NCBI GenBank assembly: GCA_015057525.1
Contig: SVEE01000003.1
Location: forward strand, 62,001 to 126,000
Length of the DNA stretch: 64,000 nucleotides
Direction of reading: 5' to 3'
Origin: Lachnospiraceae bacterium
GTDB lineage: Bacteria > Bacillota > Clostridia > Lachnospirales > Lachnospiraceae
Below, piece after piece: positions 47,328 through 64,000 of the stretch. How positions within the stretch are numbered: the stretch's first letter is position 1; every line of letters begins with the position of its first letter. A model generated the notes under the pieces. The model had not been told where the DNA came from and made no database searches. It saw nothing but the letters and a program-made list of their open reading frames with translations. A program made the translations under genes and the position numbers.

Positions 47328-49424
47328 TTATATATTTTCAAAACCATAGCAAGCCTCATCTATAAGGTTGCCATCCGCGTCATATATTCTAAACAACGTC
47401 CAGTAATATCCATATACCGGTTGCCAGATTGTCCAAAGACAATTTCCTGAAGAAACTCCGCACTGTCCTGTAGTGTAAATCCAAGCATCTTTACCCTCTG
47501 CAAGAAGTGTACAGTCGAGTATAAGCATCTCGTATCTATATGACTGATTTGGATTATCATAAGATTCTATACCTATAAGATAGCCGCCACCTGGCCCATC
47601 ATATGGCATCTGACATATGCCCTTAATAGCTCTGTGAAAATCTATGCCTACGGAACATTGAACCATGGATTCATCATCACCCTCAAACCTTGCGTAACAT
47701 ACCAAAATATATTTGGCAGACTCTTCCGGTGTCCAATTTAACCATTCATTTCCCTTAGTCCAATCAGAAACCATAAACCACTGCTGGTCATCTTCTCTGC
47801 ACGCAACCCATTTGAATTCTATATTGGACTTATCCTTATTTGCGAGACACATTCCTGCCGAAATATAAGGACTATCCACTGCTACATAAATTCCAGTCGT
47901 ATTAATCTTTGTAGGGTCAAACAATGCACCTTCATCCACATAATAGTTAGCATCTACTTCCTGACCTGACTCACCAATATGTCCGCTGTAAATAGCCGCT
48001 GAAGCCGCAACAAGGGTAGCATTGTAGTCTATAGAAACCTCATTATACTGATAATTGCTGGCAGTGTCATCATACCCACCATTCATATCCTGTCCACCAA
48101 CAAGAGCTCCTATAAGAGTGTGCACCTGAGGCTTAGTTCCTTGAACACTTCCAGAGTAACCTGATGCGGCTCTATGATGAGGATATTTAGGTCCATAATT
48201 ATTATATCCCACCACATAGCACTGCTTAGCTGCATTATTACCTAAAAGATACTTCATCTGTCCCTCTGACCAGCTTCTGTATGTGTTAGTTCCTGTCATT
48301 TTGTCATATAAAAGAACTGTATACTGTAATGATGTGTTATATCTAGCTGAACCCCAATTGTTAAGGCATTTGTAACCACCATAAGTAGTGTTGCCTGAAA
48401 TATTAGCGGTGTTAGCCATTGCACTGCTGTCACCCACATAATATTTAAGGGCTGGAGCTACATTATCCCAGCAAAGTGGCCAGTATACATTCTTAGCTTT
48501 CTCTGCTCCTGAATATTTCTGATATTCATTATAGTATGTAGAATCCCCAGTAATATTATAAAGCATGATTGCTGCAAGACAGTAATCATCCTCCCAGCCT
48601 GTAGAATTATAAAACTGGCTGATTGTCGAATCAGGATGACTTGTTGTCTTGTTATTGTACATTGCAAAGGAAAAAAGCTTCTTTGCCATATCAAGATATT
48701 CATTTCCACCAAAATTCTTATACTGCATAGCCAGTGTTGCCGCAGAAAGAGAAATTATATCTGTACATGGTGTCCCAGCATTAGCAAAGTAAAAAGGTCT
48801 GTTAGCATTTGACTGATTCTCAGGTGCACCCCAGTAGCCATGGTCATAGCCACCACCACCCTGGCCAACCTGAACACAGTAAGCTTCAACATTACCGTTA
48901 GCATCTAAAACTGCACACTTCATAAGATAATCAGCAAATCTGGTTGTAATCGTCTGTAAATGTCCCACCTGACCTGCCGCCTCGTAAGCTGCCTTATCAG
49001 TGTCGTAGCTCATACCTAACACAAATCCTGAATATGCCTCTGGTAAACCGAACTTAACATGGTCTCCTGCATCATGGTATCCACCTGTTAAATCTACTGT
49101 AACTGTCTGTCCATCATTCCTTCTGTATGTAGTTGTATCAAATGTGTGACAATCATCTCGCCAGTCAAAAAGACTTGTTTCTCCTACATCAGTTCCACAC
49201 ATATTTGCATCATACAAGTAAAGCGAATACTGAAGGAGCTTGGCATAGTTATATTCTATATCCGAATAATTATAATCAGTCAATCCACCTGCTGGTATAT
49301 TTACATATGCCTGAGATGAAAGGTCACTAGTAACCACCAGAGAAATTAACATTGCAGCGGTGGTACCTACTGCAACAAAACGTTTTATTCCTTTAGTAAG
49401 CTTTGTAGCAAAACTTTTCTTCAT
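47328..49424 (-). CDS. GH9 cellulase with C-terminal module A
   Basis: 698 aa starting MKKSFATKL, with GAGGAGG 6 bp upstream. Signal peptide at about 1-39 (AAMLISLVVTSDLSSQA). GH9 catalytic domain 45-490: GGYHDAGDHVKFGLPEA with Asp118 and Asp121, PHHRAASGYSG, and Glu462 in NEVSIDYNATLVAAS; all three key acidic positions present, so likely active on beta-1,4-glucan. The last 188 residues (from GIYVAVDSPY) are module A, shared with three other proteins here. No CBM3 or dockerin. It is the paralogue of the GH9 gene upstream (49446), which instead carries module B. The junction occurs just after the shared IGESGQ. Confidence 0.93.
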   Translation of the reverse strand: MKKSFATKLTKGIKRFVAVGTTAAMLISLVVTSDLSSQAYVNIPAGGLTDYNYSDIEYNYAKLLQYSLYLYDANMCGTDVGETSLFDWRDDCHTFDTTTYRRNDGQTVTVDLTGGYHDAGDHVKFGLPEAYSGFVLGMSYDTDKAAYEAAGQVGHLQTITTRFADYLMKCAVLDANGNVEAYCVQVGQGGGGYDHGYWGAPENQSNANRPFYFANAGTPCTDIISLSAATLAMQYKNFGGNEYLDMAKKLFSFAMYNNKTTSHPDSTISQFYNSTGWEDDYCLAAIMLYNITGDSTYYNEYQKYSGAEKAKNVYWPLCWDNVAPALKYYVGDSSAMANTANISGNTTYGGYKCLNNWGSARYNTSLQYTVLLYDKMTGTNTYRSWSEGQMKYLLGNNAAKQCYVVGYNNYGPKYPHHRAASGYSGSVQGTKPQVHTLIGALVGGQDMNGGYDDTASNYQYNEVSIDYNATLVAASAAIYSGHIGESGQEVDANYYVDEGALFDPTKINTTGIYVAVDSPYISAGMCLANKDKSNIEFKWVACREDDQQWFMVSDWTKGNEWLNWTPEESAKYILVCYARFEGDDESMVQCSVGIDFHRAIKGICQMPYDGPGGGYLIGIESYDNPNQSYRYEMLILDCTLLAEGKDAWIYTTGQCGVSSGNCLWTIWQPVYGYYWTLFRIYDADGNLIDEACYGFENI
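47331..47894 (-). repeat. Module A copy in the GH9 protein (188 aa)
   Basis: C-terminal 188 codons. Begins GIYVAVDSPY, ends ACYGFENI. The first half is Ig-like (EFKWVACREDDQQWFMVSDW), the second is the near-invariant half starting KGICQMPY. Most divergent of the four copies in the second half. Confidence 0.9.
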
Positions 49425-49445
49425 AATCTGCCTCCTCACTTCCTG

Positions 49446-51668
49446 TTATCTAGAGCCTCTCATACTTCCATCTCCGTCCATATAAACGAGGTTGCCATTC
49501 CAATCATATGTCCATGTATCCTTCATCAACGTTCCATCTGCATTAGCATAGCCATATCCTCCACCCTGAGCAGCAGAGAACTGGAACCAACCATATCTCT
49601 CCATAACACCATATGGATTTGCGTAGTATAAATTAACTCCTGCCTGATCATATGTAACAACATCCACGTACATATATCCATAAACATTAAAGAAACATAA
49701 ATCATCTACAGGCTCTCCAGCAATACTCTTTTTAACATGAGCAAAATTGCTGAACACCTCATGACCTTCGCTGTCAAAATAAATAACATTAACTCCATTT
49801 GGATGATAAGTTAATCTATCCTTCATTGCCGTACCATCAAGCTGGAAGTAATATGTATAGACACCATCACACTTAAATTCATTGATAACGGGTTTCTTAC
49901 TGCTTCTGTAAAAGCTTCTTACATTACCATCACTGTACTTATAGAAATCGCATCCCTGATAATAAGCAAACCAAACACCATCACCGAAATAATTGTCATC
50001 TTCTTCGGAAATACCACCTCCGGCACTCTCTCCAGAGTTACCACCTGCATTTCCACCTGCATTTCCACCAGTGTTTCCGCCTGTATTTCCGCCTGTGCTT
50101 CCACCTGTATTGCCTCCTGTGCTTCCTCCGGTGCTTCCGCCTGTACTTCCACCAGTGTTTCCACCATTTCCTGTGTTGTCCTGGTAGTAATTTGTATCTA
50201 TGCTCTGTCCTGATTCACCAATATGACCACTGTAAATAGCCGCTGATGCCGCAACAAGTGTTGCGTTATAATCTATAGAAACCTCGTTATACTGATAATT
50301 ATCAGCAGTATCATCATAGGTTCCAGTGGTACTCTGACCACCTACAAGAGCACCCAAAAGTACATGTTCCTGTGTTCTTGTACCCTGTACACTTCCCGAA
50401 TATCCTGATGCAGCTCTATGATGAGGATACTTAGAACTGTAGCTATTGTACCCAACCACAAAACACTGCTTAGCTGCATTATTTCCAAGAAGGTACTTCA
50501 TCTGACCTTCCGCATAGCTTCTATGAGTATTTGTTCCTGACATTTTGTCGTACAAGAGTCCCATGTACTGTATACCTGTGTTATACCTTGCTGAGCCCCA
50601 GTCAAGTAAACAGTTATATCCACCATAGGTTGTGTTACCTCTTACATTTGCACTGTTATTTACAGCATTGGCATCACCGGCATAATATACGAGTGCTGGT
50701 GCAACATTATCCCAGCTAAGTGCCCAATATACATTCTGTGCCTTCTCTGCGTATCTATACGACTGATACTCGTCATAATAAGACTGTTCACCTGTCAGAT
50801 TATAGAGAAGCATTGCAGCCAGACAGTAATCATCCTCCCAACCTGACGAATAATAAAATGTTCCAATTGTTGAGTCAGGATGATTTGTATTCTTACTATT
50901 ATTTTTAGCAAATTCAAAAAGCTTCTTCGCCATATTGAGATATTTTGTTTCTCCGAAATTTTTATACTCCATGGCGAGACATGCCGCAGAAAGAGAAATT
51001 ATATCTGTACAAGGAGTACTTGAATTTGCAAAGTAAAATGGTCTGTTGGCATTTGTCTGATTCTCTGGTGCACCCCAATAGCCATGGTCGTAACCACCGC
51101 CACCCTGGCCAACTTGTACACAAAATGCCTCTACGTTGCCATTGGCATCTAAAACTGCACATCTATATAAATAATCCGCAAACCTTGCAGTGATTGTCTT
51201 CAAATGGCCTGTCTGACCTGCCGCCTCATAAGCAGCCTTGTGGGTGTCATAACTCATACCAAGAACAAAACCTGCATATGCCTCTGGTAAACCGAACTTG
51301 ACATGGTCACCTGCATCATGGTATCCACCTGTTACATCTACTGTAACATTAACTCCATCATTTCTTCTGTATGTAGTTGTATCAAATGTATGACAATCAT
51401 TTCTCCAATCATGAAGACTAGACTCTCCTACATCAGTTCCACACATGTTTGCATCATACATATAGAGTGAATACTGCAGTAATTTTGCGTAATTATACTC
51501 TATATCCGGATAGTTGTAATCCGTTAGGGAGCCAGCTGGAACACTTACATAAGCCTGGGAACTCATATCACTTGTAGACGCCACGGAAAACACCATAGCC
51601 GCAACTGTTCCTACAGTGACAAAACGTTTAAAACCATTTATAAACTTTGTTTTAATTCCTCTCCTCAT
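49446..51668 (-). CDS. GH9 cellulase with Gly-rich linker and C-terminal module B
   Basis: 740 aa starting MRRGIKTKF; AGGAGA lies 5 bp upstream. Signal peptide about 1-39. GH9 domain with GGYHDAGDHVKFGLPEA (Asp118, Asp121), PHHRAASGYSG and NEVSIDYNATLVAAS, so complete catalytic set. A Gly/Ser/Thr/Asn linker of repeating NTGGSTGG and NAGGN units follows, then a short acidic stretch (ISEEDDNYFGDG) and module B (last 175 residues). Secreted; module B may bind the cell wall or glucan. Very similar to the neighbour GH9 (47328) through the catalytic domain, up to IGESGQ, after which they are unrelated. Confidence 0.93.
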   Translation of the reverse strand: MRRGIKTKFINGFKRFVTVGTVAAMVFSVASTSDMSSQAYVSVPAGSLTDYNYPDIEYNYAKLLQYSLYMYDANMCGTDVGESSLHDWRNDCHTFDTTTYRRNDGVNVTVDVTGGYHDAGDHVKFGLPEAYAGFVLGMSYDTHKAAYEAAGQTGHLKTITARFADYLYRCAVLDANGNVEAFCVQVGQGGGGYDHGYWGAPENQTNANRPFYFANSSTPCTDIISLSAACLAMEYKNFGETKYLNMAKKLFEFAKNNSKNTNHPDSTIGTFYYSSGWEDDYCLAAMLLYNLTGEQSYYDEYQSYRYAEKAQNVYWALSWDNVAPALVYYAGDANAVNNSANVRGNTTYGGYNCLLDWGSARYNTGIQYMGLLYDKMSGTNTHRSYAEGQMKYLLGNNAAKQCFVVGYNSYSSKYPHHRAASGYSGSVQGTRTQEHVLLGALVGGQSTTGTYDDTADNYQYNEVSIDYNATLVAASAAIYSGHIGESGQSIDTNYYQDNTGNGGNTGGSTGGSTGGSTGGNTGGSTGGNTGGNTGGNAGGNAGGNSGESAGGGISEEDDNYFGDGVWFAYYQGCDFYKYSDGNVRSFYRSSKKPVINEFKCDGVYTYYFQLDGTAMKDRLTYHPNGVNVIYFDSEGHEVFSNFAHVKKSIAGEPVDDLCFFNVYGYMYVDVVTYDQAGVNLYYANPYGVMERYGWFQFSAAQGGGYGYANADGTLMKDTWTYDWNGNLVYMDGDGSMRGSR
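49449..49973 (-). repeat. Module B copy in the GH9 protein (175 aa)
   Basis: Begins WFAYYQGCDFYKYSDG and ends DGSMRGSR. Contains YYFQLDGTAMKDRLTYHPNG, CFFNVYGYMYVDVVTYD, YYANPYGVMER and YANADGTLMKDTWTYDWNG: repeated aromatic/glycine/DGT units resembling cell-wall- or glucan-binding repeats. Confidence 0.9.
50038..50168 (-). repeat. Tandem repeat DNA encoding the Gly/Ser/Thr linker
   Basis: Repeats of a 12-bp type unit (ccacctgtgctt, ccacctgcattt and variants), encoding STGG/NTGG/NAGG units. Prone to slippage; linker length may vary between strains. Confidence 0.9.
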
Positions 51669-51695
51669 AAAATCTCCTATCTTTATATACTTCAA

Positions 51696-51729
51696 ATTCG
51701 AGAGTACTCAAAAAAGAATACTCTCGAAT
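51696..51729 (-). other. Perfect inverted repeat inside the secreted-enzyme operon
   Basis: Arms ATTCGAGAGTA and TACTCTCGAAT (11 bp) around a 12-base loop, located between the transglutaminase-like gene and GH9-B. It is followed on the minus strand only by TTTGAAG, so it is a weak terminator at best; attenuation or transcript processing is possible. Confidence 0.6.
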
Positions 51730-51748
51730 TCATTAACCAACGATATAA

Positions 51749-53341
51749 TTAAATATTTTGGAATCCATAGCATGCTTCATCAAGCAAATTGCCATCAGCA
51801 TCATATACTCTGAACAATGTCCAGTAGTATCCATAAAGAGGCTGCCATGTTGTCCAGAAAGAAGTCTCTGGAACTAAGCACTGTCCTGTTGTATATGTCC
51901 ATGCATCCTTACCTTCTGCAAGAAGGGTACAGTCAAGGATTAACATTTCATATCTGTACTGTCCGCCCGGATTATCATATGTTTCAAATCCAATAAGATA
52001 ACCACCGCCTTCACCTGTATATGGCATCTGACATTTGCCCTTAATATATGGATGATGTTCTATACCCACTGATTTTTCTACATATACTTCCTCATAACCA
52101 CAAATTCTTGCCTGACACATAAGAACATAGTTACCATATTTTTCTGGATACCAGTCAAGCCATTCATTATTTTCAGTCCATCCTTGAACCTCAAACCAAA
52201 CCTCGTCCAAAGTGTTACAAGCAATCCAACGATACTCAACATCATCGTTATATGATACAAGAGTATCCATACCGGCAAATACATGGTCTTTATCGCTAGT
52301 TGCAACATATATACCACTTGAATCAATCATAGTATCACCGTAATTAGCATGGTTGCTATAGCACAAAGGTGCTATGTCATAATATGGGTCTTCTCTGTAG
52401 TGTCCACTGATTATATATGAATCAGATGTCAAGAAATAATCAATATAAGGAATATCTGAATATTCATCATCATCCCAGGTTGTATCAACGTTGTAATATG
52501 TACCATCTAAATTAACAACATTCCACGCATGGTCATAAGATGTAACACTAAGACAGTCAAAACCTGCACCGTTAGTAAGTAAAGCATAGAACTTAGCATA
52601 ACCTGCGCACACACTCTTACCTAAAATAATAGCACTGTATGCTGTCTGGTCATAATCATTAAAAACGTAATCTGTGTTAGCACAAACAATGTGCTGAGCC
52701 TTAAGTAATTTAGAATAGTTGCTTGAATAAGCGTTTATCTGTGATATCCAATTGTCAACCTTACCAAAAAGCTGATTAGTTACATTCTCTCTGGAATATC
52801 CATTTCCAAATATATCATATACACAAATTGCCACCTCTGAAGTCGCACTGCTGTAATATATACGACCCTCAAGGAAATAAAACTGAGGATTCTGGAATAT
52901 AAAAACATACGTCAAATCCTTAGCTCTCTGAGTGGTAATGCCAGCAAATGATACACGTCCAATTGTATAGCTACCAGAAATAGATGGTGCTGTAGCATTA
53001 GTTGTGAGGTAATAGTTTGCTGTATGATACAATGCATCATAGAAAGCCTGCTCTGTTGCAGTAAGATTACCTCTACAAGTGTAGCTTGCATAACGAGAAT
53101 AATCTCTAGAACCATAAACCTCAGAAACCATTCCCTCAGCCTGCATCTCTTCTGACTCAACAAGCTCCTGGTATTCTGCGTCTGTAAATTCAATTGCCTC
53201 TATTCCCTTGTATCCATTCTTAGCGTCTGTTTCAGGCATTGGCTGTTCTGCTGCCCTCACCCCTATAGGATTAGCTAACAAAGTAATCATGAACACAAAG
53301 GAAAAAAGTAACGCCCATAATCTCTTACTAATTTTTTTCAT
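51749..53341 (-). CDS. Secreted transglutaminase-like protein with C-terminal module A
   Basis: 530 aa starting MKKISKRLW, with GGGAGGG upstream. Signal peptide about 1-31. Transglutaminase/protease-fold core at about 210-300: GKSVCAGYAKFYALL with Cys245, SYDHAWNVVNLDGTYYNVD with His271 and Asp286, completing the Cys-His-Asp triad. An unassigned region lies at 60-200. The last 188 residues are module A, ending ACYGFQNI. Such domains in Firmicutes often act as peptidases or crosslinkers on the cell surface; no substrate is evident. It is in the operon of CAP and GH9 genes. Confidence 0.88.
   Translation of the reverse strand: MKKISKRLWALLFSFVFMITLLANPIGVRAAEQPMPETDAKNGYKGIEAIEFTDAEYQELVESEEMQAEGMVSEVYGSRDYSRYASYTCRGNLTATEQAFYDALYHTANYYLTTNATAPSISGSYTIGRVSFAGITTQRAKDLTYVFIFQNPQFYFLEGRIYYSSATSEVAICVYDIFGNGYSRENVTNQLFGKVDNWISQINAYSSNYSKLLKAQHIVCANTDYVFNDYDQTAYSAIILGKSVCAGYAKFYALLTNGAGFDCLSVTSYDHAWNVVNLDGTYYNVDTTWDDDEYSDIPYIDYFLTSDSYIISGHYREDPYYDIAPLCYSNHANYGDTMIDSSGIYVATSDKDHVFAGMDTLVSYNDDVEYRWIACNTLDEVWFEVQGWTENNEWLDWYPEKYGNYVLMCQARICGYEEVYVEKSVGIEHHPYIKGKCQMPYTGEGGGYLIGFETYDNPGGQYRYEMLILDCTLLAEGKDAWTYTTGQCLVPETSFWTTWQPLYGYYWTLFRVYDADGNLLDEACYGFQNI
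51752..52315 (-). repeat. Module A copy in the transglutaminase-like protein (188 aa)
   Basis: Begins GIYVATSDKD, ends ACYGFQNI. Over the last 97 residues it differs from the CAP-A copy at only six positions by eye count. Confidence 0.9.
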
Positions 53342-53367
53342 TGTTTCCCTCCCCAAAAAAATATTAT

Positions 53368-54627
53368 TTAGCATATATTTTCGAAACCGTAGCAGGCTTC
53401 ATCTAATAAATTACCATCTGCATCATACACTCTAAACAGTGTCCAATAATATCCGTATATCGGTTGCCAAATTGTCCAGAACGATGTCTCTGGCACTAAA
53501 CACTGACCAGTTGTATATATCCAAGCATCCTTACCTTCTGCAAGAAGGGTACAGTCAAGGATAAGCATCTCATATCTATACTGTCCATTAGGATTATTGT
53601 AGGTCTCAAAACCTATAAGATATCCTCCACCTTCACCTGTATATGGCATCTGACATTTGCCTTTAATGTATTTATGATATTCCACACTTGTTGAAGCCGT
53701 ATCTGTCTGTGTTGCATCCCAATAATCCATAGCCTCAACCTGAACAACGTAATTGCCATACTTATCAGGTGTCCATTCACATTTGTCACTGAGATTCCAA
53801 TCCTGAATAACAAACCACTGCTCATTATTTGGGTCACAAGCAAGCCATCTGTATACAACATAATCATAATCTATGTAATCTACCATTGCCTCCATAACAA
53901 TACCCGATGGATCATTAGATATTATCTTAATACTATCAACAATTAAATCATCAGATGCACTAGATATCTCCACTGGGTAGACTACATACTGGTCTGCCGG
54001 TCTCGCTGATGTTGTAGTAGCTGGACCAGAACCAAAAATCTGCGTCCAACAATAAGAACTATCGGTTGGTTTGAAACAACCAACACCAATTGACTTATAA
54101 TTTGCATTCAAAATATTACGTCTGTGCCCCTCTGATTGCATCCAAGCACTTACAACAGACTCTGGGCTTCTGTATCCCCATGCAATATTCTCTCCTGCGG
54201 CTCCGCCATAAGCAGGAAGATCATTAAATGCGGTGAAACAGCTCTTACCATTAGGTCTTGTATGATCGAAAACAATATTTATTTCTGCTGCTCTAAGCAT
54301 TGCTCTCTCCAGCATTTCCACATCCATAGAAAGCGGTGCAACACCTGCCTTAGCACGTTCTTGATTAATTAAATCAAGAACCTGATATGCCCAATTGTAC
54401 ATCTTAGTACCAGCCACATCCTGAGTCTTAACAACAGCACCTGCTACATGCTCTTCATCTACACTATATCCAACTGCATCCTCTGTACACGTAGCCTCAC
54501 CAAGCGAGCATTCTTCCATCTCTTCTGCATGCGCTGTCACAATTGTGGCATCAGAAGCAAAACATACAAGTACCATCATAAAACTAAGTAATAATGCAAT
54601 TATATTTGTTTTTGTCCCTCTTATCAT
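53368..54627 (-). CDS. Secreted CAP-domain protein with C-terminal module A
   Basis: 419 aa starting MIRGTKTNI; GGGAGG 6 bp upstream decides this start over upstream in-frame codons. Signal peptide about 1-36 (ALLLSFMMVLVCFASDATIVTAHA in shortened form: LLLSFMMVLVCFASDA). CAP/SCP domain at about 80-200: WAYQVLDLINQERAKAG, FDHTRPNGKSC, GENIAWGYRSPESVV, SEGHRRNILNANYKSIGVG with the conserved His and Glu positions. Last 188 residues are module A. Its CAP domain is paralogous to the CAP-B protein at 54740. CAP proteins of bacteria are secreted with unclear functions. Confidence 0.9.
   Translation of the reverse strand: MIRGTKTNIIALLLSFMMVLVCFASDATIVTAHAEEMEECSLGEATCTEDAVGYSVDEEHVAGAVVKTQDVAGTKMYNWAYQVLDLINQERAKAGVAPLSMDVEMLERAMLRAAEINIVFDHTRPNGKSCFTAFNDLPAYGGAAGENIAWGYRSPESVVSAWMQSEGHRRNILNANYKSIGVGCFKPTDSSYCWTQIFGSGPATTTSARPADQYVVYPVEISSASDDLIVDSIKIISNDPSGIVMEAMVDYIDYDYVVYRWLACDPNNEQWFVIQDWNLSDKCEWTPDKYGNYVVQVEAMDYWDATQTDTASTSVEYHKYIKGKCQMPYTGEGGGYLIGFETYNNPNGQYRYEMLILDCTLLAEGKDAWIYTTGQCLVPETSFWTIWQPIYGYYWTLFRVYDADGNLLDEACYGFENIC
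53371..53934 (-). repeat. Module A copy in the CAP protein (188 aa)
   Basis: Begins SIKIISNDPS, ends ACYGFENIC. Contains YRWLACDPNNEQWFVIQDW and KGKCQMPYTGEGGGYLIG. The four Cys of the invariant half are present. Confidence 0.9.
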
Positions 54628-54739
54628 CTTGTACCTCCCTTTAAAACTAGTTCTTCTTACACCCAAACACATAATTACATTTATTTTACCATGGCAAGGC
54701 TTTTTTGTACATAATAGAATTATCATATTAGTAAGTATT

Positions 54740-56383
54740 TCAATATGCCGTCATTGTTCCATTACCTTCCATGTAAACTAAATTACCATTCCAATCGTAT
54801 GTCCATGTATTTACCATCAATGTACCATCAGTATTAGCATAGCCATATTTACCAGCGGCTCCACTCCATGGTGTACCATCGGCACACATAACTGTGTCTG
54901 AAAATTGGAACCACTTTCCTCTCTCAAGCACACCATATGGATTAGCATAGTAAAGATATGTTCCTGTCTTATCATAAGTGACAACATCTACATAAAGATA
55001 TCCATATACATCAAAGAAACAATAGTCATTCACTGGATTACCCTCAATACTCTTTTTAACATGGGCAAAATCACTGAACACTTCATGACCTTCACTGTCA
55101 AAATAGATAACGTTAATTCCATTCGGATGGTAGGTGAGTCTATCCTTCATGGCAGTTCCATCATACTGGAAGTAATATGTATATACTCCATCACATTTAA
55201 ACTCATCTCTAACCATCTTACTGCCATCTCTATAGAAAGCTTTTATATTCCCATCATCGTATTGATAGAAATCACAACCTTGATAATATGCAAACCATGT
55301 TGCACCTTCTATTGCTTGATTACCAGCCTCTTCACTACCTGAATTTCCACCTTCTGATGCACCACCTGTACCACCTTGGCCTGGTGTTTCACCACCTGAA
55401 GTTTGGCCAGTTGAAATAACCTGCCCCTGTATCACAAGTTCAAGATTATCTACGCCTGAATTGACACCTATAATATTAAATTCTCCTGCTTTTATACCTG
55501 TAACAATTCCTTCGGAAGTAACAGTCGCTATATCTGTGTCACTTGATGTCCATGAAAAAGATTTTAAATCCAAATCCGCACCGAAGTATGCTGCTTGACT
55601 ATCTGTCAATTCGCTACCTTGATTTGAAATAGAAATATTAGGCCTAGTCTGCTCTCCCACCTTAACAGATATACTGTTGAAACTAAAATCTGATGAAGCC
55701 AAATATGCACTCATAATCTGTATCCTATGAGTAGCACTCTTGTCCGAAACACTCACTGCTTCTGTTGCAGTTCCTGCACCAAAGACCTGTACCCAGCAAT
55801 ATGCTCCGTTATCTTGTTTGAAACAACCTATTCCCACAGATGTATAATCTGGATTGAGAATATTCTCTCTATGCCCATCTGATTCCATCCATGCTTCCAT
55901 AACCTCTGATGGACTTGTCTGACCCATAGCTATATTCTCTCCGCAGTAATAATTAACTGCCGGAAGCTCCCAAAAAGGCTCGTAATAGGTTCCACCATTA
56001 GGTCTATAGTGTCCATAACATACATTACACTCCGCAGCTCTTAACATAGAAAGCTCTAACATATCCTTATCCATAGAAAGTGGTGTGAGACCTTCTGCCA
56101 CACGTTCCTGATTAAGAATATTTAAGACTTCATATGCCCACGAATACTTGTTGATACCGGTTACATATAAATCCGAATAATATCCTGCCACCACATCAAT
56201 TTCATCAATGTGCATATCCTCATGTATTTCTTCTTCCATCATTGCATAGTCCATTACGCAATCCGGGGTTTCTTCTGCTTGTAATTCAATATCTTTTGTG
56301 TTCATGGCAACAATTCCCAAGCCCATTACAAAGCTCATAAAATACGCCATCCCATGTGTTTTAATCTTAGTTTGTTTTAACAT
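54740..56383 (-). CDS. Secreted CAP-domain protein with Big-2-like domain and module B
   Basis: 547 aa starting MLKQTKIKTHG, with AAGGGGG upstream. Signal peptide or N-terminal membrane helix (MAYFMSFVMGLGIVAMNT). CAP domain at about 75-210: WAYEVLNILNQERVAEGL, YGHYRPNGGTYYEPF, GENIAMGQTSPSEVM, SDGHRENILNPDYTSVGIG. A bacterial Ig-like (Big_2) domain follows (FSWTSSDTDIATVTSEGIVTG in shortened form: SDTDIATVTSEGIVTG), then a Gly/Ser-rich linker and module B at the end. First gene of the R4 operon, with a promoter 40 bp upstream containing a LexA-like half-palindrome. Paralogue of CAP-A in its CAP domain. Confidence 0.88.
   Translation of the reverse strand: MLKQTKIKTHGMAYFMSFVMGLGIVAMNTKDIELQAEETPDCVMDYAMMEEEIHEDMHIDEIDVVAGYYSDLYVTGINKYSWAYEVLNILNQERVAEGLTPLSMDKDMLELSMLRAAECNVCYGHYRPNGGTYYEPFWELPAVNYYCGENIAMGQTSPSEVMEAWMESDGHRENILNPDYTSVGIGCFKQDNGAYCWVQVFGAGTATEAVSVSDKSATHRIQIMSAYLASSDFSFNSISVKVGEQTRPNISISNQGSELTDSQAAYFGADLDLKSFSWTSSDTDIATVTSEGIVTGIKAGEFNIIGVNSGVDNLELVIQGQVISTGQTSGGETPGQGGTGGASEGGNSGSEEAGNQAIEGATWFAYYQGCDFYQYDDGNIKAFYRDGSKMVRDEFKCDGVYTYYFQYDGTAMKDRLTYHPNGINVIYFDSEGHEVFSDFAHVKKSIEGNPVNDYCFFDVYGYLYVDVVTYDKTGTYLYYANPYGVLERGKWFQFSDTVMCADGTPWSGAAGKYGYANTDGTLMVNTWTYDWNGNLVYMEGNGTMTAY
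54743..55297 (-). repeat. Module B copy in the CAP protein (185 aa)
   Basis: WFAYYQGCDFYQYDDGNIKA to GNGTMTAY. It has an insertion of about 10 residues (DTVMCADGTPWSGAAGK) relative to the other copies. Confidence 0.9.
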
Positions 56384-56448: not shown

Positions 56449-56463
56449 CAGTAAACAACAAAA

Positions 56464-56490: not shown

Positions 56491-56515
56491 CTTAAAATCA
56501 ATAATTAAATTCTAA

Positions 56516-57589
56516 TTATCTAGAACCTCTCATACTACCATCAGCTTCCATGTATACAAGGTTGCCATTCCAGTCGTATGTATACTGATTACACATTAAT
56601 GTTCCATCTGGATTAGCGTAACCGTATCCGCCTCCCTGCTTAGCAGAGAACTCGAACCATCCTGTACACTCCATAACACCATATGGGTTAGCATAGTATA
56701 AGTTAACACCAGCCTGATCATATGTTACAACATCAACGTACAAATATCCGTAAACATTGAAGAAGCATAAATCTCTTACTGCTTTACCTTCAATAGTTTT
56801 TCTAACTATTTCGAAATTACTAAACACCTCATGTCCGTAAGCATCGAAGTAAATTACTTCAACACCATTTGGATGATATGTAAGTCTTTCCTTCATTGCA
56901 GTACCGTCTGCCTGGAAGTAATAAGTATATGTACCATCACACTTAAAGTCATTGATTACAGCGTTACCCTTCTTGTCGAAGCATCTTACGCTACCATCAT
57001 CATATCCAAAGAAATCATATCCCTGATATGAAGCAAACTTACCAGTAATAGGCTCCTCTAAATAGAAAGGAACTAAGTCATCTGCCTCTGCGTAATCAGT
57101 CCAATAGTAAACGTAGTACTTACCTGGATCTACTAACTTACCGCCTGCCTTCTGATCCCAGCTTAAGTAAAGCATATAATACTGTGGATCATATCTAAAT
57201 GTACCTTCGCTACCTACAAGAAGATTACCAGCTGTATCTGCAACTACTACATAATAGCTCTCACCATAGTAATCGCCGTGACAAGTCATTGTAAATCCAA
57301 TTTCTACTGTAGATGCATATGGCCATTCAGAATTAGAAAATTCAGGAGAAAGAACCATAGTATTATGTGTTCCTGCATAATCTCTATCCTCTGCGTTTGC
57401 ATCCTCAACCATTACCTCCTGAATAGAAAGTCCATCAAGCTCGCCTGATTCAATAGCAGCTTCAACAGCCTCCTTATCAAATGGTAACTGTTCTTTTTCT
57501 TCTGCAGCTGTATTAACAACACCGTAGTTCATAGTTGAAATAGCTAAAACTGCAGCAAGAACAAGTTTTGAAAGTTTTTTGAATTTCAT
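56516..57589 (-). CDS. Small secreted protein with module B (B1)
   Basis: 357 aa. Signal peptide about 1-30 (LSKLVLAAVLAISTMNYGVV), almost identical in its start to the B2 protein. Residues 55-180 are an unassigned beta-rich domain (STVEIGFTMTCHGDYYGESY; GSEGTFRYDPQYYMLYLSWD). Module B occupies the last 174 residues, ending GSMRGSR as in GH9-B. GGGGGA precedes the ATG. Single-gene unit with own promoter and terminator. Function unknown; no enzymatic motif seen. Confidence 0.85.
   Translation of the reverse strand: MKFKKLSKLVLAAVLAISTMNYGVVNTAAEEKEQLPFDKEAVEAAIESGELDGLSIQEVMVEDANAEDRDYAGTHNTMVLSPEFSNSEWPYASTVEIGFTMTCHGDYYGESYYVVVADTAGNLLVGSEGTFRYDPQYYMLYLSWDQKAGGKLVDPGKYYVYYWTDYAEADDLVPFYLEEPITGKFASYQGYDFFGYDDGSVRCFDKKGNAVINDFKCDGTYTYYFQADGTAMKERLTYHPNGVEVIYFDAYGHEVFSNFEIVRKTIEGKAVRDLCFFNVYGYLYVDVVTYDQAGVNLYYANPYGVMECTGWFEFSAKQGGGYGYANPDGTLMCNQYTYDWNGNLVYMEADGSMRGSR
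56519..57040 (-). repeat. Module B copy in protein B1 (174 aa)
   Basis: Begins KFASYQGYDFFGYDDG, ends DGSMRGSR. Shares FDKKGNAVIN/FDKKGKAVIN with the B2 copy. Confidence 0.9.
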
Positions 57590-57628
57590 CAAAACATCCC
57601 CCTTATTATAATTAATGCTGTAAAATGG

Positions 57629-57657
57629 ATAATAACACCAAAATGCCTATTTTGCAA
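57629..57657 (-). promoter_or_regulatory. Promoter of the B1 gene
   Basis: TTGCAA (57652-57657), 17-bp spacer, TATTAT (57629-57634) on the minus strand, 40 bp before the start codon. Confidence 0.65.
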
Positions 57658-57670
57658 TATCTGCAATAAA

Positions 57671-57698
57671 GAAAAGTCACATAAAAATGTGACTTTTC
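57671..57698 (-). terminator. Terminator of the B2 gene
   Basis: GAAAAGTCACA pairs with TGTGACTTTTC, loop of six, followed on the minus strand by TTTATT. T run is part of the stem. Confidence 0.85.
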
Positions 57699-57716
57699 TG
57701 TGTACTTTATAAGATT

Positions 57717-58688
57717 TTAGTATTTATAAATAGCTATCGTCCATGCTCCATTGGCTGTAATTTCCATGTGACCACCGTAGCAATTAAGATAAACATCATC
57801 CTCTACTTGAACAAAATACTCACCCTCGTCAGGTATACTATTTACAAGAAGCTCGTCATAATATCCCTCAGAATCATATGTCCATATAATGAAATTATCC
57901 CAGTCGTAGCTTTCGCATCTGCAAACAACCTTATAATGACCCTCTGGAATTGTTAAATTATTAATTACAACAGGAAGTGAAGGATCATCATCTCCATAGT
58001 TAACGCCAGAGTATCTTGCAACCATCTTGCTTGTTCCTCTTACATTACCGTTACCTTCAATGTAAACGTAATTGCCATTCTGGTCGTAAGTATACGCGTT
58101 ACACATTAATGTTCCGTCAGCGTTAGCATAACCCATTCCGCTTCCCCACTCTTCTGAGAACTGGAACCATCCTGAGCGTTCCATAACACCATATGGATTT
58201 GCATAATATAAGTGAGTTCCTGACTTATCATATGTAACAACATCAACATACATATATCCATATACGTTAAAGAAACATAAGTCATCTACTGGCTTGCCTT
58301 CAATACTCTTCTTAACATTAGCAAAATCACTGAACACCTCATGTCCTTCGCTGTCAAAATAGATAACATGTACTCCATCTGGATGATATGTTAATCTATC
58401 CTTCATAGCTGTTCCATCAAGCTGGAAATAATAAGTATATGTGCCATCACACTTAAACTCATTAATTACTGCCTTGCCCTTCTTATCAAAGCACTTAACG
58501 CTACCGTCGCTGTACTTGTAGAAAGAATATCCTTCGTACTGAGCAAAACGAGTTCCCGCTGCTACTTCATCAATGCTGTCTTCCTGAAATTCTACTTCTT
58601 CTGCGTTAGTAACAACTGTTCCGATTGCCATTGTAGAAACCGCGAGTACAGCTGCAACAACAAGTTTTGAAAGTTTTTTTAATTTCAT
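57717..58688 (-). CDS. Small secreted protein with internal module B (B2)
   Basis: 323 aa. Signal peptide about 1-29 (LSKLVVAAVLAVSTMAIG). Module B is residues 47-220, not at the C-terminus. Residues 221-323 form another domain (SGVNYGDDDPSLPVVINNLTIPEGHYKVV in shortened form: LPVVINNLTIPEGHYKVV), probably a beta-sandwich, ending AWTIAIYKY. It is the only module B protein with a domain after it. GGGGGA precedes the ATG. Single gene with strong promoter and terminator. No enzymatic motif recognised. Confidence 0.85.
   Translation of the reverse strand: MKLKKLSKLVVAAVLAVSTMAIGTVVTNAEEVEFQEDSIDEVAAGTRFAQYEGYSFYKYSDGSVKCFDKKGKAVINEFKCDGTYTYYFQLDGTAMKDRLTYHPDGVHVIYFDSEGHEVFSDFANVKKSIEGKPVDDLCFFNVYGYMYVDVVTYDKSGTHLYYANPYGVMERSGWFQFSEEWGSGMGYANADGTLMCNAYTYDQNGNYVYIEGNGNVRGTSKMVARYSGVNYGDDDPSLPVVINNLTIPEGHYKVVCRCESYDWDNFIIWTYDSEGYYDELLVNSIPDEGEYFVQVEDDVYLNCYGGHMEITANGAWTIAIYKY
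58029..58550 (-). repeat. Module B copy in protein B2 (174 aa)
   Basis: Begins RFAQYEGYSFYKYSDG, ends GNGNVRGTS. Internal rather than C-terminal. Confidence 0.9.
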
Positions 58689-58733
58689 AATTTCCCCCTA
58701 GAATTTATATTTCAGCAAATGCCGATACCAAAA

Positions 58734-58761
58734 ATATTATCACTAAATATTATTTTGTCAA
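58734..58761 (-). promoter_or_regulatory. Promoter of the B2 gene
   Basis: Perfect TTGACA (58756-58761), 16-bp spacer, TAATAT (58734-58739) on the minus strand. Confidence 0.75.
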
Positions 58762-58810
58762 GAAAATAGGACACAAAATAGCCCAAAATATCGTAGCAAA
58801 AATCCAACAA

Positions 58811-58837
58811 AAAAAGCCAACCTTTGTTGGCTTTTTT
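58811..58837 (-). terminator. Terminator after the amidase gene
   Basis: AAAAAGCCAAC pairs with GTTGGCTTTTT; followed on the minus strand by TTTGTTGG. Confidence 0.92.
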
Positions 58838-58844
58838 GTATCGT

Positions 58845-61800
58845 CTAATACGAAAGCAATTTCTTTATATATAAATATCTAAGGGAGTAACCGTAATCCT
58901 CTGCTGCTGCCCATCCCTTTCCCTGTGGGTTTTCCTTAATTCCAAGCCACTCAACATATGTTGCAGTACCTCTTGTTACATGCTGGAATCTTGGGTCAAC
59001 ACAAGGATTTACAAGAGCATCTTTAGAGCCATATGCCTTAAGGTGCTGTACCTGAGCTCGTATACCCTCTCTAACATTGGCAAATGTTGCACCTGCTACA
59101 CCACCACCGGTTGCGCCTAGACCCGCAAAGTTAAACTGCTCTATCTTCACATCTCCACCATATCTTAGATATCCTGTCTCTTTCATTGCCTGGCAAAATG
59201 CTACCTCAGCTTTAACGCCCTCTGCGGCACATTCCTCAAGATAAATCTGACAAAATGCTTCTATTGTCGGTGCATCAGAAGTAGCATAAAACGCAGGATA
59301 TGTTGCATTAGCATTATAATATGCCACCATCTGCTCCACAGTTGTAGAGCTTTCACCCATAATCTTATACATTGATGCTTCTGTCTGTTCGAAATTATAG
59401 CATGTGCTATATGGCATAGTTTCTACGCCGTCTTTATCAGTCACAAATATCTGAACAGCATATACCCCAAAGTTATACTTATGGTTTGTTATATTAACCT
59501 GTACCTTATATACACCGTCTTTAACCTTTTCAGCTGTGTAATAGTGTATATCACTAAGGTCAGAAGCTGTCCATGCAGGTACCTTAATCTCCTTAACCTC
59601 TGTATTCGAGTTTACACCAATGAAGACGTCAAATGTACCATTATTTACACTTGCATTCTTAATTGTAATACCTTCAGAAACCTGCTCAGTTTCTGGTGCA
59701 GGAGTAGCTGGTTTAACAAATTCAAAGCCCGTCTCACCTATCATTACACTTGTACCATCTGAAAGTGTTGCATAGGCATGAGCATAGAATTTTCCTTCCT
59801 TAGAATAGGCTCCATAAGGAACAACAACTATCCATCTTCCAAATTCATCTTTTACACATTCAAACCATCTGAGATCCGATGTAGCTTTTGGCCATACTCC
59901 AAATCTAACTCCTGTTACCTTATCACCATAAGGTACATTTTCGGCAACAAGAATATAGTTTTCTTTATTGCCTGCATCAAATGACCATACAGACGCCTTA
60001 GGCATATCAAACTTAAAACATGTACTTACAGACTGGTCTTCTATTCCATTTTCACCCTTAATATAAGCTTGTGCCGCATAAGTGCCATAATTGTAGTTAT
60101 GGTTCTTAATATTAGCCTTCGCTACATATGAGCCATCCTTCTGCTTAGTAGCTGTATACCAATATAAATCACTTAAATCCGATTTCGACCATACAGGCAC
60201 TCTAACCTGAGCTACTCCAGAAGGACACACAATGCCCGAAACAACCACATCAAATGTACCTGCACTCTTATTCATGTTCTTAACAGTAATGCTCTTTGCA
60301 TAAGGCGCATTAACGTTAAAGCTTGTACTTCCAATCATTTTGCTTGTTCCGTCACTGTAATACACATATACATCCGAGTAATGTGTTCCCATCTTCTGAT
60401 AATCAGAAACAGGAACGCATGTTATCCATCTGCCATATTCATCTTTACAGCCCTCATACCACTTAAGGTCACTAAGACCGTCCTTCCAAACGCCGAACTT
60501 AACTGCTGTTACAGTTGCTGGCTTAGGTACATTAGTTAATGTAAGGATAAATGTTTTCTGTCCATCTGCATCAAAGGCATCTACTGCAGGTCCTGCCTGA
60601 GTAATCTTATGAAGCTTTGTAGCAGTATTAACACGCACACCCATCTTATCTGTTACATATGTCTGTATTGCATATGTCCCATTCAAATATCCATGGTTTG
60701 CAAGGTCTACAGTAACCTTGTAAGTGCCATCGCTCTGGAGTGATGCAACATACCACTTTAAGTTGCTAAGGTCATCCTTTGACCAAACAGGAACCTCAAT
60801 CTTCTCGATTCCAGCTGGTGCGTATATACCAGATATAATTACATCAAATGTACCACTAGAATTATTCTGATTCTTAACTGTTATTGTACCACCTGAAGGT
60901 CCTGAAACATCAATACTTGTGCTTCCTACCTTTGTTCTATCGCCGTTACCAAGCACCACATAGGCATCTACGCTAAACTTTCCAAGTTTTGCGAAATCGT
61001 TTACGCTAAATGTAGAAAACCATATGTCACTTGAACGGAAAGAGCTATATGTTTTAGTCTCCTTTGTAGAAACATTAGTAATATCAAATTCTACTTTATA
61101 TGCAGAAGGTACACCTGCTGCCATAAGAGTATATTTACCTGAGCCCTCGTGTACAGCTGCTACAGAAGCATCTCCATTCTTATAGTCGTAAGGTGGATAC
61201 TCAGCAAAATACTCTAATATTGCCTTCGCATCTGCCACACCAAGTTGCTTTAAAGCGTCCTCTGAACCAAGATATTTTTCGCAATCAGCCTGATTGCTTA
61301 TATATGCATGCTCTATTAACACGCCAAGAATTCCTGCATTCTTACACTGTCTGATAACCGCATAATAATCTGCTGTTGAACCATCCTCATAAGTGTAATC
61401 TGAAGAGTTTCTATAGTGAATTCCTCTATCATTTAATCCAAGTGCTGTAAGTTTAGCTATTATCTTCTCTGCAAGAGCCTCACCTCTCTCACCAAGATCA
61501 GGTCTATAATTATCATTAGGATAATATACCTCTGTTCCATTTGGGGATGTGCTACCTGCTGAGTTATTGTGAATACTTACAAAGAGGTCTGCATTAACCT
61601 CCTTAGCCATGTTAACTCTTGTACCATCTGAAAGACCTGGGTCCTCAGCATTGGTAGTACGAGTCATATACACTTTTACTCCATTTTTCTCAAGCTCTTC
61701 CTTACAATACTCAGATATCTTAAGGTTAAGGTCTCTCTCACAGTAAGCCACACCATTCCATTCCTTGTATGCTCCGGAATCATAGCCTCCATGACCAGGG

Positions 61801-62471
61801 TCAATCATTACAACAAGCTCACCATCTGCGTAAAAGTCCTGAACAAACTCCTCAACCAAAGAAGCTTCCTGACTTTCAACCGATGCCAAATTATCAGTAA
61901 CGTAAATCTCACCATCTGCATTTGTAAATGTTACGTCTGCTGCAAATTCTTCTTCAACAAGAGCACCATCTGGTGTTGTTTCTATATCAACACCTACACC
62001 GAAACTGGCCTCCATACCTGTAGCTGAGACATCAACACTAGTGGTTAATTCACCAAAAACAAAATCAACCTTTGTAACAGTATATTTACCATCGGCATAA
62101 TCCTCTGTTATATCCATGGTAAATAATGCAGTCTCACTATCAAGGTATTCTGCATCTTTACTATATGCGTCACCTGTTGTTTCATTTGTGTAATATACTG
62201 TGGCCTTATCAGGTGTCACTCCACCTGTAAAACCAACCATCACATATTGAGAACCTGTGTGCTCAATATATCTTTCTCCCATTACCAAATAGTCCATCAA
62301 AAGCTGACTGTCTGCATCCATCTCTGTTGCCACTACATCATCGTCTACAACTATGACTTCTGTATTCTCTTGTATATATGTAGGGTCTGCAGCTATGGCA
62401 GAAAAACCATTGCTACCAATTACCATACAAATGCCAAGAAGCATTGCAACGTACTTTTTAATTTTTTTCAT
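58845..62471 (-). CDS. Secreted N-acetylmuramoyl-L-alanine amidase / glucosaminidase with six alternating Ig-like repeats
   Basis: 1208 aa. Signal peptide about 1-28. Residues 55-205 are an unassigned beta domain. Amidase_3 at 218-425 with all zinc ligands: His227 (DPGHGG), Glu245 (CERDLN), His301 (SIHNNS) and catalytic Glu387 (LIEHAY). Residues about 435-1045 contain six GBS_Bsp-like domains alternating in two types: type 1 (SGTFDVIISGIYAPAGIEKI...VWSKDDLSNLKWY) and type 2 (FILTLTNVP...FGVWKDGLSDLKWYE). The C-terminus 1060-1208 is glucosaminidase-like (FCQAMKETGYLRYGGDV, catalytic Glu; EQFNFAGLGATGGG). A dual peptidoglycan hydrolase for cell separation or remodelling. It follows the Big-A gene. 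Confidence 0.93.
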   Translation of the reverse strand: MKKIKKYVAMLLGICMVIGSNGFSAIAADPTYIQENTEVIVVDDDVVATEMDADSQLLMDYLVMGERYIEHTGSQYVMVGFTGGVTPDKATVYYTNETTGDAYSKDAEYLDSETALFTMDITEDYADGKYTVTKVDFVFGELTTSVDVSATGMEASFGVGVDIETTPDGALVEEEFAADVTFTNADGEIYVTDNLASVESQEASLVEEFVQDFYADGELVVMIDPGHGGYDSGAYKEWNGVAYCERDLNLKISEYCKEELEKNGVKVYMTRTTNAEDPGLSDGTRVNMAKEVNADLFVSIHNNSAGSTSPNGTEVYYPNDNYRPDLGERGEALAEKIIAKLTALGLNDRGIHYRNSSDYTYEDGSTADYYAVIRQCKNAGILGVLIEHAYISNQADCEKYLGSEDALKQLGVADAKAILEYFAEYPPYDYKNGDASVAAVHEGSGKYTLMAAGVPSAYKVEFDITNVSTKETKTYSSFRSSDIWFSTFSVNDFAKLGKFSVDAYVVLGNGDRTKVGSTSIDVSGPSGGTITVKNQNNSSGTFDVIISGIYAPAGIEKIEVPVWSKDDLSNLKWYVASLQSDGTYKVTVDLANHGYLNGTYAIQTYVTDKMGVRVNTATKLHKITQAGPAVDAFDADGQKTFILTLTNVPKPATVTAVKFGVWKDGLSDLKWYEGCKDEYGRWITCVPVSDYQKMGTHYSDVYVYYSDGTSKMIGSTSFNVNAPYAKSITVKNMNKSAGTFDVVVSGIVCPSGVAQVRVPVWSKSDLSDLYWYTATKQKDGSYVAKANIKNHNYNYGTYAAQAYIKGENGIEDQSVSTCFKFDMPKASVWSFDAGNKENYILVAENVPYGDKVTGVRFGVWPKATSDLRWFECVKDEFGRWIVVVPYGAYSKEGKFYAHAYATLSDGTSVMIGETGFEFVKPATPAPETEQVSEGITIKNASVNNGTFDVFIGVNSNTEVKEIKVPAWTASDLSDIHYYTAEKVKDGVYKVQVNITNHKYNFGVYAVQIFVTDKDGVETMPYSTCYNFEQTEASMYKIMGESSTTVEQMVAYYNANATYPAFYATSDAPTIEAFCQIYLEECAAEGVKAEVAFCQAMKETGYLRYGGDVKIEQFNFAGLGATGGGVAGATFANVREGIRAQVQHLKAYGSKDALVNPCVDPRFQHVTRGTATYVEWLGIKENPQGKGWAAAEDYGYSLRYLYIKKLLSY

Positions 62472-62506
62472 AATAACAACCTTTCTGATAGTATTTTAAT
62501 TATGCT

Positions 62507-64000
62507 TTAGCATATATTTTCAAATCCATAACACTCTTCATCTATTAAATTACCATCTTCGTCGTATAATCTGAAAAGCGTCCAATAGTAACCGTACTGT
62601 GGTTGCCATATTGTCCAAAAACAATTCTCTGGCACATAACACTGTCCTGTCGTGTATATCCACGCATCCTTGCCCTGGGCAAGAAGTGTACAATCCAATA
62701 TTAACATCTCATATTTATACTTTCCACCTGGATTATCATAGGTTTCAAATCCTATAAGATATCCTCCACCTTCGCCATCATAAGGCATCTGACATTTACC
62801 TTTAATGTACTTGTGGTGATTTATTCCCACTGAAGCTTCAGCAACACTGTCCTCGTTTCCTACAACTCTTACCTTACATAAAAGGACATAGTCACCTGAT
62901 TCCTCCGGCTCCCAGTCAAGCCATTCATTATTCAAAGTCCAATCCTTAACCAAAAACCATTTTTCATCACTTGTCTTACAAGCAAGCCATTGATATTCTA
63001 AATCACAATTCCCTGTAGTAGTTGTTGTCATTCCAACCAATGCATGTTCATTATCATGCTCAGCCACATATAATCCACCCGAAGAAACTGTAACATCAAG
63101 CTTATCAGTAGTAACCGACAGACCAGCTGTTGGGTCACTGCACGCCCAATAGGTTGTCGCTGTTTTCCTCATATAAAACGTATATGTCTTATTAGGGCTT
63201 AAACCTAAAAATGTATTTGATGTCTGCCAATTCGACTTATCCATAGAATACTCACAGCCGGCTACCTGTGTTAATGTTATTGAGTTTGTAGAAATTTCAA
63301 CAACACTAGGCATATCGGGAACATCATATTTTCCATAAACTGTTACAACACATGTATCTCTAGAAAAGCCATCGCCAGAAGTCGCCACTATTTCTGTTAC
63401 CCCCGGAGAAACGGCAGTCACAGTTCCATCGGCTGACACAGTAGCAACATTTGGATTTGAAGAACTCCATGTACATGTTTTATAACTTGCATTCTCCGGA
63501 AGAATACTTACTGTAAGATTTATCTGGTTTTCTCCTTCACCAAGTTGGAAACTATGATTATCTATATTAATATCAATATCAGTAACATATATTGGAAAAG
63601 TCCTCGTTGTTGTTGCAGCTGATGCTTTACTTGCACGGTAATAACCTTGCGCTGCTCTTCTCATATAAAAAGTATAACTTGTATCAGGTGTCAATCCTGT
63701 AAATGTGCTTGACGACTGCCAATTCACCTTGTCCATAGAGTATTCACAGCCTACTACATACACAAGAGTTATAGTGTCTGTACTTCTTCCCATAACGGTA
63801 GGTGCATTAGGCGAATCCTGAGAACCATACACATAAACTTTACACTCTGCTCTAAAATATCCATCTCCTGCAACAGCATAAACAACAGTCTCGCCTGGAG
63901 CTACAGCCGTCACAACACCATCATCTGATATAGTTGCAACGCTTGCATTTTCAACCCCCCACGAATAATTCTTGTCTGTCGCATTAGAAGGATATATTAA
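62507..64000 (-). CDS. Secreted Ig-like/fibronectin-like protein with C-terminal module A (5' end beyond window)
   Basis: 498 codons visible; the reading frame is open to the window edge, so the true start is upstream and no start codon is assigned. Two Big_2-like domains (NASVATISDDGVVTAVAPG and SNPNVATVSADGTVTAVSPG) alternate with fibronectin-like segments carrying EYSMDKVNWQSSSTFTGL and EYSMDKSNWQTSNTFLGL. The last 189 residues are module A, ending ECYGFENIC. No catalytic motif in the visible part; one may lie in the missing N-terminus. It is followed after 35 bp by the amidase gene, probably in the same transcript. Confidence 0.88.
   Translation of the reverse strand, partial: LIYPSNATDKNYSWGVENASVATISDDGVVTAVAPGETVVYAVAGDGYFRAECKVYVYGSQDSPNAPTVMGRSTDTITLVYVVGCEYSMDKVNWQSSSTFTGLTPDTSYTFYMRRAAQGYYRASKASAATTTRTFPIYVTDIDINIDNHSFQLGEGENQINLTVSILPENASYKTCTWSSSNPNVATVSADGTVTAVSPGVTEIVATSGDGFSRDTCVVTVYGKYDVPDMPSVVEISTNSITLTQVAGCEYSMDKSNWQTSNTFLGLSPNKTYTFYMRKTATTYWACSDPTAGLSVTTDKLDVTVSSGGLYVAEHDNEHALVGMTTTTTGNCDLEYQWLACKTSDEKWFLVKDWTLNNEWLDWEPEESGDYVLLCKVRVVGNEDSVAEASVGINHHKYIKGKCQMPYDGEGGGYLIGFETYDNPGGKYKYEMLILDCTLLAQGKDAWIYTTGQCYVPENCFWTIWQPQYGYYWTLFRLYDEDGNLIDEECYGFENIC
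62510..63076 (-). repeat. Module A copy in the Ig-like protein (189 aa)
   Basis: Begins GLYVAEHDNE, ends ECYGFENIC. Keeps KGKCQMPYDGEGGGYLIG and all four Cys of the invariant half. Confidence 0.9.

Follow-up and report, generated by a model that had tools for sequence, protein, structure and literature searches.

What common function could be served by a terminal module that recurs on secreted proteins of different activity? The question is raised by a 64,000-nucleotide stretch of a Lachnospiraceae bacterium genome (assembly GCA_015057525.1, contig SVEE01000003.1, positions 62,001 to 126,000; hereafter the window, in genome G000), where four proteins encoded on the minus strand share a C-terminal block of approximately 188–189 amino acids (aa), here called module A. 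The block was noted in a preliminary description of the window, and sequence comparison confirmed it. The second half of the block, the core, represents a real, hitherto unnamed, and strongly constrained domain family with an FN3 fold. Sequence evidence further suggests that module A is probably a non-covalent attachment module, which retains secreted proteins on the producer's own envelope. The main evidence for attachment is the exchange of module A for other end-modules on orthologous proteins.

The carriers in the window are a GH9 cellulase (GH9a, open reading frame [ORF] 47328–49439), a transglutaminase-like protein (ORF 51749–53374), a CAP protein (CAPa, ORF 53368–54726), and a fourth protein (ORF 62507–64000) that crosses the window edge. 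The full frame of the latter (874 aa, locus L053) has an N-terminus that narrowly passes the Transglut_core cut-off (23.3 bits versus 23) and also contains Big_2 parts. As this protein is 42% identical over 360 aa to the first transglutaminase-like protein of the window, the carriers comprise three families (GH9, two transglutaminase-like proteins, and CAP) rather than four unrelated proteins, and the fourth is not simply Ig-like, as previously described. The core motif (KGkCQMPY...CYGFeNI) is nearly invariant among the window copies, and the four conserved Cys were found as reported, although two copies (CAPa and the second transglutaminase-like protein) have one Cys more, located after ENI. 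Seven module A copies were detected in G000 overall, each at E 1.0e-50 or lower. The window copies are positioned as follows.

47331..47624, minus strand: module A core (domain 2) of GH9 cellulase GH9a, from sequence comparison
47625..47909 (boundary approximate), minus strand: module A first half (domain 1, Y_Y_Y/FN3-like) of GH9a
51752..52042, minus strand: module A core of the first transglutaminase-like protein
52043..52327 (boundary approximate), minus strand: module A first half of the first transglutaminase-like protein
53371..53664, minus strand: module A core of CAP protein CAPa, final Cys included
53665..53949 (boundary approximate), minus strand: module A first half of CAPa
62510..62803, minus strand: module A core of the second transglutaminase-like/Big_2 protein (exceeds the window, full in L053), final Cys included
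62804..63088 (boundary approximate), minus strand: module A first half of the second transglutaminase-like/Big_2 protein

Paralogues within the window differ in their ends. Identity is 78.5% between GH9a and GH9b (498 aa) and 42% between CAPa and CAPb (234 aa), yet in each pair the first protein ends in module A and the second in a different module, module B. The module B copies, together with a further window protein in which an internal region was exchanged, are listed here.

49449..50015, minus strand: module B, C-terminus of GH9b (GH9a paralogue), no Pfam or NCBIfam match at E 1
54743..55321, minus strand: module B, C-terminus of CAPb (CAPa paralogue)
56519..57058, minus strand: module B of protein B1
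58026..58565 (end approximate), minus strand: module B of protein B2
58845..62471, minus strand: amidase, GBS_Bsp-like repeats, and glucosaminidase; in G006 and G036, repeat C takes the place of these repeats

GH9 orthologues were present in 21 of 37 genomes of the genus (G017 carries a fragment), and their ends varied. Module A was the end in nine genomes (G000, G001, G015, G016, G020, G023, G032, G034, and G035), ChW repeats in six (G003, G009, G013, G019, G026, and G031), repeat C (our label for a repeat without a name) in G006 and G036, and an FN3 tail rich in Lys in G022 and G029, while the G011 protein breaks off within a linker of this kind. Another GH9 copy in G000 ends in module B. 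We compared these ends with a tree of 20 GH9 catalytic domains, from which G036 (end motif not located) and the G017 fragment were excluded. The five end labels required four changes, which is the minimum for five, versus a mean of 9.8 when labels were shuffled; hence, module type follows lineage. Label A alone required three changes, at least two of them forced by starred branches, and the G000 pair was sister to the ChW clade (87/97). The end-module has therefore switched at least four times among the proteins on this tree, and the simplest history has module A first, then replaced in several lineages. A similar exchange was seen in orthologues of the amidase/glucosaminidase, where G006 and G036 kept a 175–177-aa end at 70–71% identity and the other end at 36–38%, with the repeats in between swapped. 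The G001, G015, and G034 proteins matched the window protein over its full length (49–50%).

Module A was confined to a narrow set of organisms. Matches were found in 12 of 99 genomes, all of them among the 37 of this genus, with none in the other 62 at E 1e-3. Searching 397 family genomes by profile recovered two, G000 and G203, a member of another genus with 12 matches; a weak match in G361 (E 5e-4) was dropped as the protein looks SNase-like by eye. A pattern scan of GTDB contigs, which catches close relatives only, yielded 108 stretches, of which 83 were confirmed and 75 are listed as distinct loci. These sit in records whose titles name Lachnospiraceae, Clostridium, Clostridiales, or Eubacterium (one from the cultured Eubacterium sp. 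MSJ-21), and module A was found here only in such records and in genomes of this family. None of 33 pattern matches in viral contigs was a relative.

The proteins carrying module A are read, from their sequences, as a putative surface proteome. A Pfam scan covered 50 carriers besides nine window proteins, with at least one from each of 43 sequence clusters except the GH9 cluster (covered by window proteins) and L085 (a 139-aa frame); 16 of the 50 had no Pfam match at E 0.01. Among the parts recognized in the rest were Transglut_core, GH16 with CBM4_9, GH25, NLPC_P60, YkuD, Peptidase_C1 with a lectin-like domain, and Peptidase_M6, along with CAP, LRR_5, Big_2/Big_3, Cna_B, MBG/YDG, beta-helix repeats, Cthe_2159, and DUF5722. 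Enzymes acting on the own wall made up 4 of the 50 (GH25, YkuD, and two NlpC/P60; L160, L154, L076, and L064). By a crude rule, 81 of 97 carriers had a signal-like N-terminus, and the 16 misses include frames that are apparently truncated or masked as well as some that, by eye, are signal-like. Neither an LPXTG-like end nor a hydrophobic tail was found in any of 101 carriers (pattern and hydropathy). Thus, as in a non-covalent anchor, module A occurs on many exported proteins of differing activity (export being judged by the same crude rule) that have no covalent-anchor signal. This agrees with the preliminary description, in which secreted proteins of unlike activity share a tag.

The two halves of module A are separate domains. 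While they form a joint block in the window, the single 188–189-aa tag first envisaged does not hold more widely, as the first half is missing or substituted in several carriers and the core stands without it in others (e.g., a CAP protein in L044 and a YkuD protein in L064). The core, approximately 95 aa long, was found in 101 distinct proteins (102 cores, duplicates removed). Its reported placement on the final residue comes close to the truth for the window copies and applies, to within two residues, to 91 of the 101 distinct carriers; it is internal in the other 10. For example, NlpC/P60 follows the core in L076 and L154, DUF5722 follows it in L114, and in L075 and L083 it precedes a part judged transglutaminase-like by eye, for which Pfam gave no such match in L075. 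One metagenome-assembled genome (MAG), CAMBKU, had an internal core in four of six carriers seen (L090, L092, L104, and L114).

Conservation also separates the two domains. Mean pairwise identity was 33% for domain 1 versus 68% for the core in the same 54 proteins, which were chosen for having both; because they were selected by a domain 1 motif, the value for domain 1 is, if anything, too high. This alignment comprises 50 of the 75 loci and the four window copies (L126 and L143 were dropped, as were 23 loci on grounds of length, redundancy, or a regular expression); a second alignment comprises 71 of the 75 loci (four near-duplicates excluded) and the four window copies. Among eight core copies (28 pairs), the nonsynonymous substitution rate was 0.04–0.20, whereas the synonymous rate was 1.0–5.2 in 15 pairs and not computable, and so read as saturated, in 13. 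With synonymous sites near or beyond saturation and few nonsynonymous changes, the likeness of the cores is maintained by selection, and recent duplication or gene conversion as its source is ruled out. Six aromatic residues are invariant (W48, W63, W66, Y70, Y72, and Y73 in CAPa core numbering). As all four Cys are present in only 81 of 102 cores, the complete set is not required throughout. Core copies grouped by genome on a tree of few columns and many unresolved forks (47 changes versus a shuffled mean of 73.2; none of 200 shuffles as low), although copies from the closely related G001, G015, and G034 grouped by orthologue instead.

An AlphaFold model, as proposed in the preliminary description, predicted two FN3/Ig-like beta-sandwiches with high confidence (predicted local distance difference test score 95). 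The earlier impression of a triple-Tyr or Ig-like first half is supported. Against Y_Y_Y (PF07495; gathering score 26.6 bits), window copies of domain 1 scored 14.2–17.0 bits and the relative in L061 28.1 bits. There was no fn3 (PF00041) sequence match in module A; the one fn3 row in a window protein covers residues 62–95, outside the module. Unlike these known domains, the core has no above-cut-off sequence match and is far more conserved than the domain adjacent to it. No named Pfam or NCBIfam family and no PDB sequence family matched the core, a PDB sequence search with module A gave nothing convincing (best E 0.059), its exact motif strings were absent from open-licence PMC literature, and wider literature searches gave nothing on module A among the matches listed. 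The core was not accepted as an internal duplicate of domain 1, since a single profile comparison gave a probability of 10% (E 0.0032), although the folds agree and the two may share an origin.

Membership of the established anchor families was rejected, in line with what had been recognized from the sequence. Dockerin (PF00404) had no match in scanned carriers (window proteins at E 1, others at E 0.01), with one dockerin elsewhere in G000 (C14). SLH (PF00395) had none in G000 and one among the 37 genomes (21.8 bits), and a sub-threshold SLH row (13.6 bits) falls in CAPb, which is without module A. CWB2 (PF04122) was not matched in Pfam scans of module A or its carriers, ChW (PF07538) was not matched across the G000 genome, and module A contained no Pfam carbohydrate-binding module (CBM). 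Module A also had no match to the choline/glucan-binding repeats (PF19127, TIGR04035).

Taken with the exchange and the range of carriers, surface retention is the best supported of the three functions initially offered (retention, sorting, and substrate binding). We infer binding to the own surface, the residues responsible, and a wall polymer as ligand along the following lines. A carrier would be exported by its signal peptide and would then fold outside the cell, where the core, an FN3-fold domain under strong purifying selection, may retain it by binding one common envelope ligand, most likely a wall glycopolymer. The binding surface would probably involve W48, W63, W66, Y70, Y72, and Y73, and domain 1 may act as a fast-evolving FN3/Y_Y_Y-like spacer or support. 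More tentatively, each lineage of the genus may equip its orthologous surface enzymes with an attachment module of one type out of several that are unrelated (A with B, ChW, repeat C, or Lys-rich FN3), and may change type across the whole genome, presumably following a change in the envelope ligand. In that case, module A could represent a new anchor family of FN3 fold, whose envelope ligand would be specific to the lineage and is not known to hold proteins.

Known systems offer partial parallels. ChW repeats, for which PMC5817068 gives surface anchoring of proteins or protein-protein interaction as the predicted role, resemble module A in ending the same GH9 orthologues in sister genomes (at least 18 matches in 14 of 37 genomes). 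They are, however, short (35 profile positions), have no sequence likeness to module A, and occur in arrays, whereas nearly every module A carrier has a single copy of two FN3-like domains. For Clostridioides difficile, PMC4973711 places a polymer locus directly downstream of the S-layer/cwp locus and names PSII as the polymer to which CWB2 binds. A surface protein family with a common non-covalent anchor and an anchor cluster adjoining a polysaccharide locus are thus features that the account in that source shares with the window, whereas module A has no CWB2 match and the polysaccharide locus is not common to more distant module A genomes. The locus in the window is as follows.

16681..47311, mostly minus strand: surface polysaccharide locus adjoining the module A/B cluster, from gene content

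Its genes encode flippases, a sub-threshold Wzy-like protein, two pyruvyl transferases, an initiating sugar transferase, a UDP-sugar dehydrogenase, and an acyltransferase. Two FrhB-like proteins are encoded near the two polysaccharide pyruvyl transferases (29501–30598 and 38865–40037); the genome has no SLH matches. Polysaccharide-gene matches near the cluster were also seen in G020, G001, G015, and G034, less clearly in G035 (module B contig), and in the repeat C genomes G006 and G036. None were seen in 52 kb around two module A copies of G032 or in the 15–51 kb examined of the ChW genomes G003, G009, G013, and G026, and stretches of G022 and G029 held none but an epimerase. Glyphos_transf was discarded as a discriminator, being present in all 37 genomes.

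Several observations weigh against own-envelope attachment or its pairing with a particular polymer. In the stretches compared, the G000 polysaccharide locus shares 0–2 of 29 genes at ≥50% with other module A genomes, and G001 shares 32 genes with G015 and 12 with G034; the loci of G000, G020, G035, and the G001/G015/G034 group have little in common; and the repeat C genome G036 shares four of eight tested genes with the module A genome G001 at ≥70%. As the loci differ among distant module A genomes, the neighboring polymer is not supported as the specific ligand, and the idea that module A binds it is weakened. On the GH9 tree, module A may be merely ancestral and lost in several lineages. 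FN3 folds are often protein-binding, and ChW, the exchange partner, may itself serve protein-protein contact. Finally, module A and ChW matches occur together in G032 (2 and 137), G012 (1 and 83), and G007 (1 and 49), and G024 has one module A alongside 13 repeat C, so attachment systems can coexist.

It is unlikely, on balance, that the core instead docks to a surface scaffold protein or to other core copies, forming a cell-surface complex as in cohesin-dockerin or RbmA-like assemblies. Such docking would suit the FN3-like tandem fold, the presence of up to 21 module A matches per genome, and the clustering of cores by genome, which is expected if they adapt to one local partner; a polymer ligand accounts equally well for this clustering, and exchange with ChW and Lys-rich tails suits wall attachment. 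No partner protein turned up, although no systematic search for one was made. Vibrio cholerae RbmA (4be6) ranked third among the Foldseek matches listed (E 1.2e-5), with generic FN3 receptors alike, but it is a whole protein rather than a tag and one fold match among many to FN3 proteins. RbmA is a bacterial tandem FN3 protein for which PMC5605196 reports direct exopolysaccharide binding.

A CBM-like role, guiding enzymes to plant or host glycans, appears improbable. Fusions to GH9 (nine genomes), GH16 with CBM4_9, and a Cthe_2159 carbohydrate-binding protein, the invariant Trp and Tyr of the core, and the rumen origin of several MAGs (by title) are all consistent with it, but no Pfam CBM was matched within module A, and substrate binding becomes less likely because module A is also fused to own-wall enzymes (YkuD, NlpC/P60, and GH25) and to CAP, transglutaminase-like, LRR, and Cna_B proteins, and is swapped for ChW and other modules on orthologues. 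A C-terminal signal for sorting or secretion, which dedicated machinery would recognize and possibly remove, is most improbable despite the terminal position of most cores, as 10 of 101 are internal and no membrane or sortase tail follows the core, which is moreover a compact, confidently folded domain in the model, and sortase matches (1–3 in 32 of 37 genomes) did not follow the distribution of module A.

Returning to attachment, we asked how the modules are distributed genome-wide. Using cut-offs picked after the counts were seen (at least 5 for module A; at least 10 for ChW and repeat C, with ChW scored up to 150 matches per genome), 30 of 37 genomes were rich in one module, 7 in none, and 0 in two. 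The 8 A-rich genomes had 0–4 ChW matches each, the 14 ChW-rich genomes 18 to at least 150 ChW matches, and the 8 C-rich genomes 10–21 repeat C matches. Fisher tests, uncorrected for shared ancestry, gave P values of 0.015 (A-rich versus ChW-rich), 0.16 (A versus C), and 0.015 (ChW versus C), and 0.48 for presence of A versus presence of ChW when cut-offs were dropped. Module B was found in 8 of 12 module A genomes versus 0 of 25 others (P 1.3e-5, likewise uncorrected for phylogeny).

If correct, attachment via module A would be a new means by which some Lachnospiraceae, which are gut and rumen bacteria, display enzymes, adhesins, and CAP proteins, and the core could be used as a display tag for gut commensals. 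Orthologues with differing anchors in sister genomes form a natural experiment that makes the matching of anchor to ligand directly testable.

Module B and repeat C are two further unnamed modules. Module B, a C-terminal module of repeat character, has 12 matches in G000 and 64 in G020. It is weakly like choline/glucan-binding repeats (PF19127, TIGR04035), protein B2 matching TIGR04035 at E 4.6e-4 and 20.4 bits (cut-off 147.7). LicD was rejected as a marker of module B, being absent from the module B genomes G000, G001, G015, and G035 and present in G034, G020, G023, and G007. In GH9b (49446–51695), a Gly/Asn/Thr-rich linker with GGNTGG repeats separates GH9 from module B; GH9a is without such a linker. 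Repeat C (VDYSAVYDYNYY...YGMKEGR, approximately 91 aa) has no Pfam match and occurs in L195, L240, and L244 (G006 and G036), with up to 21 matches per genome. The YkuD protein of L064 and its cluster-mates L050 and L078 have repeat-C-like parts followed by the module A core within one protein.

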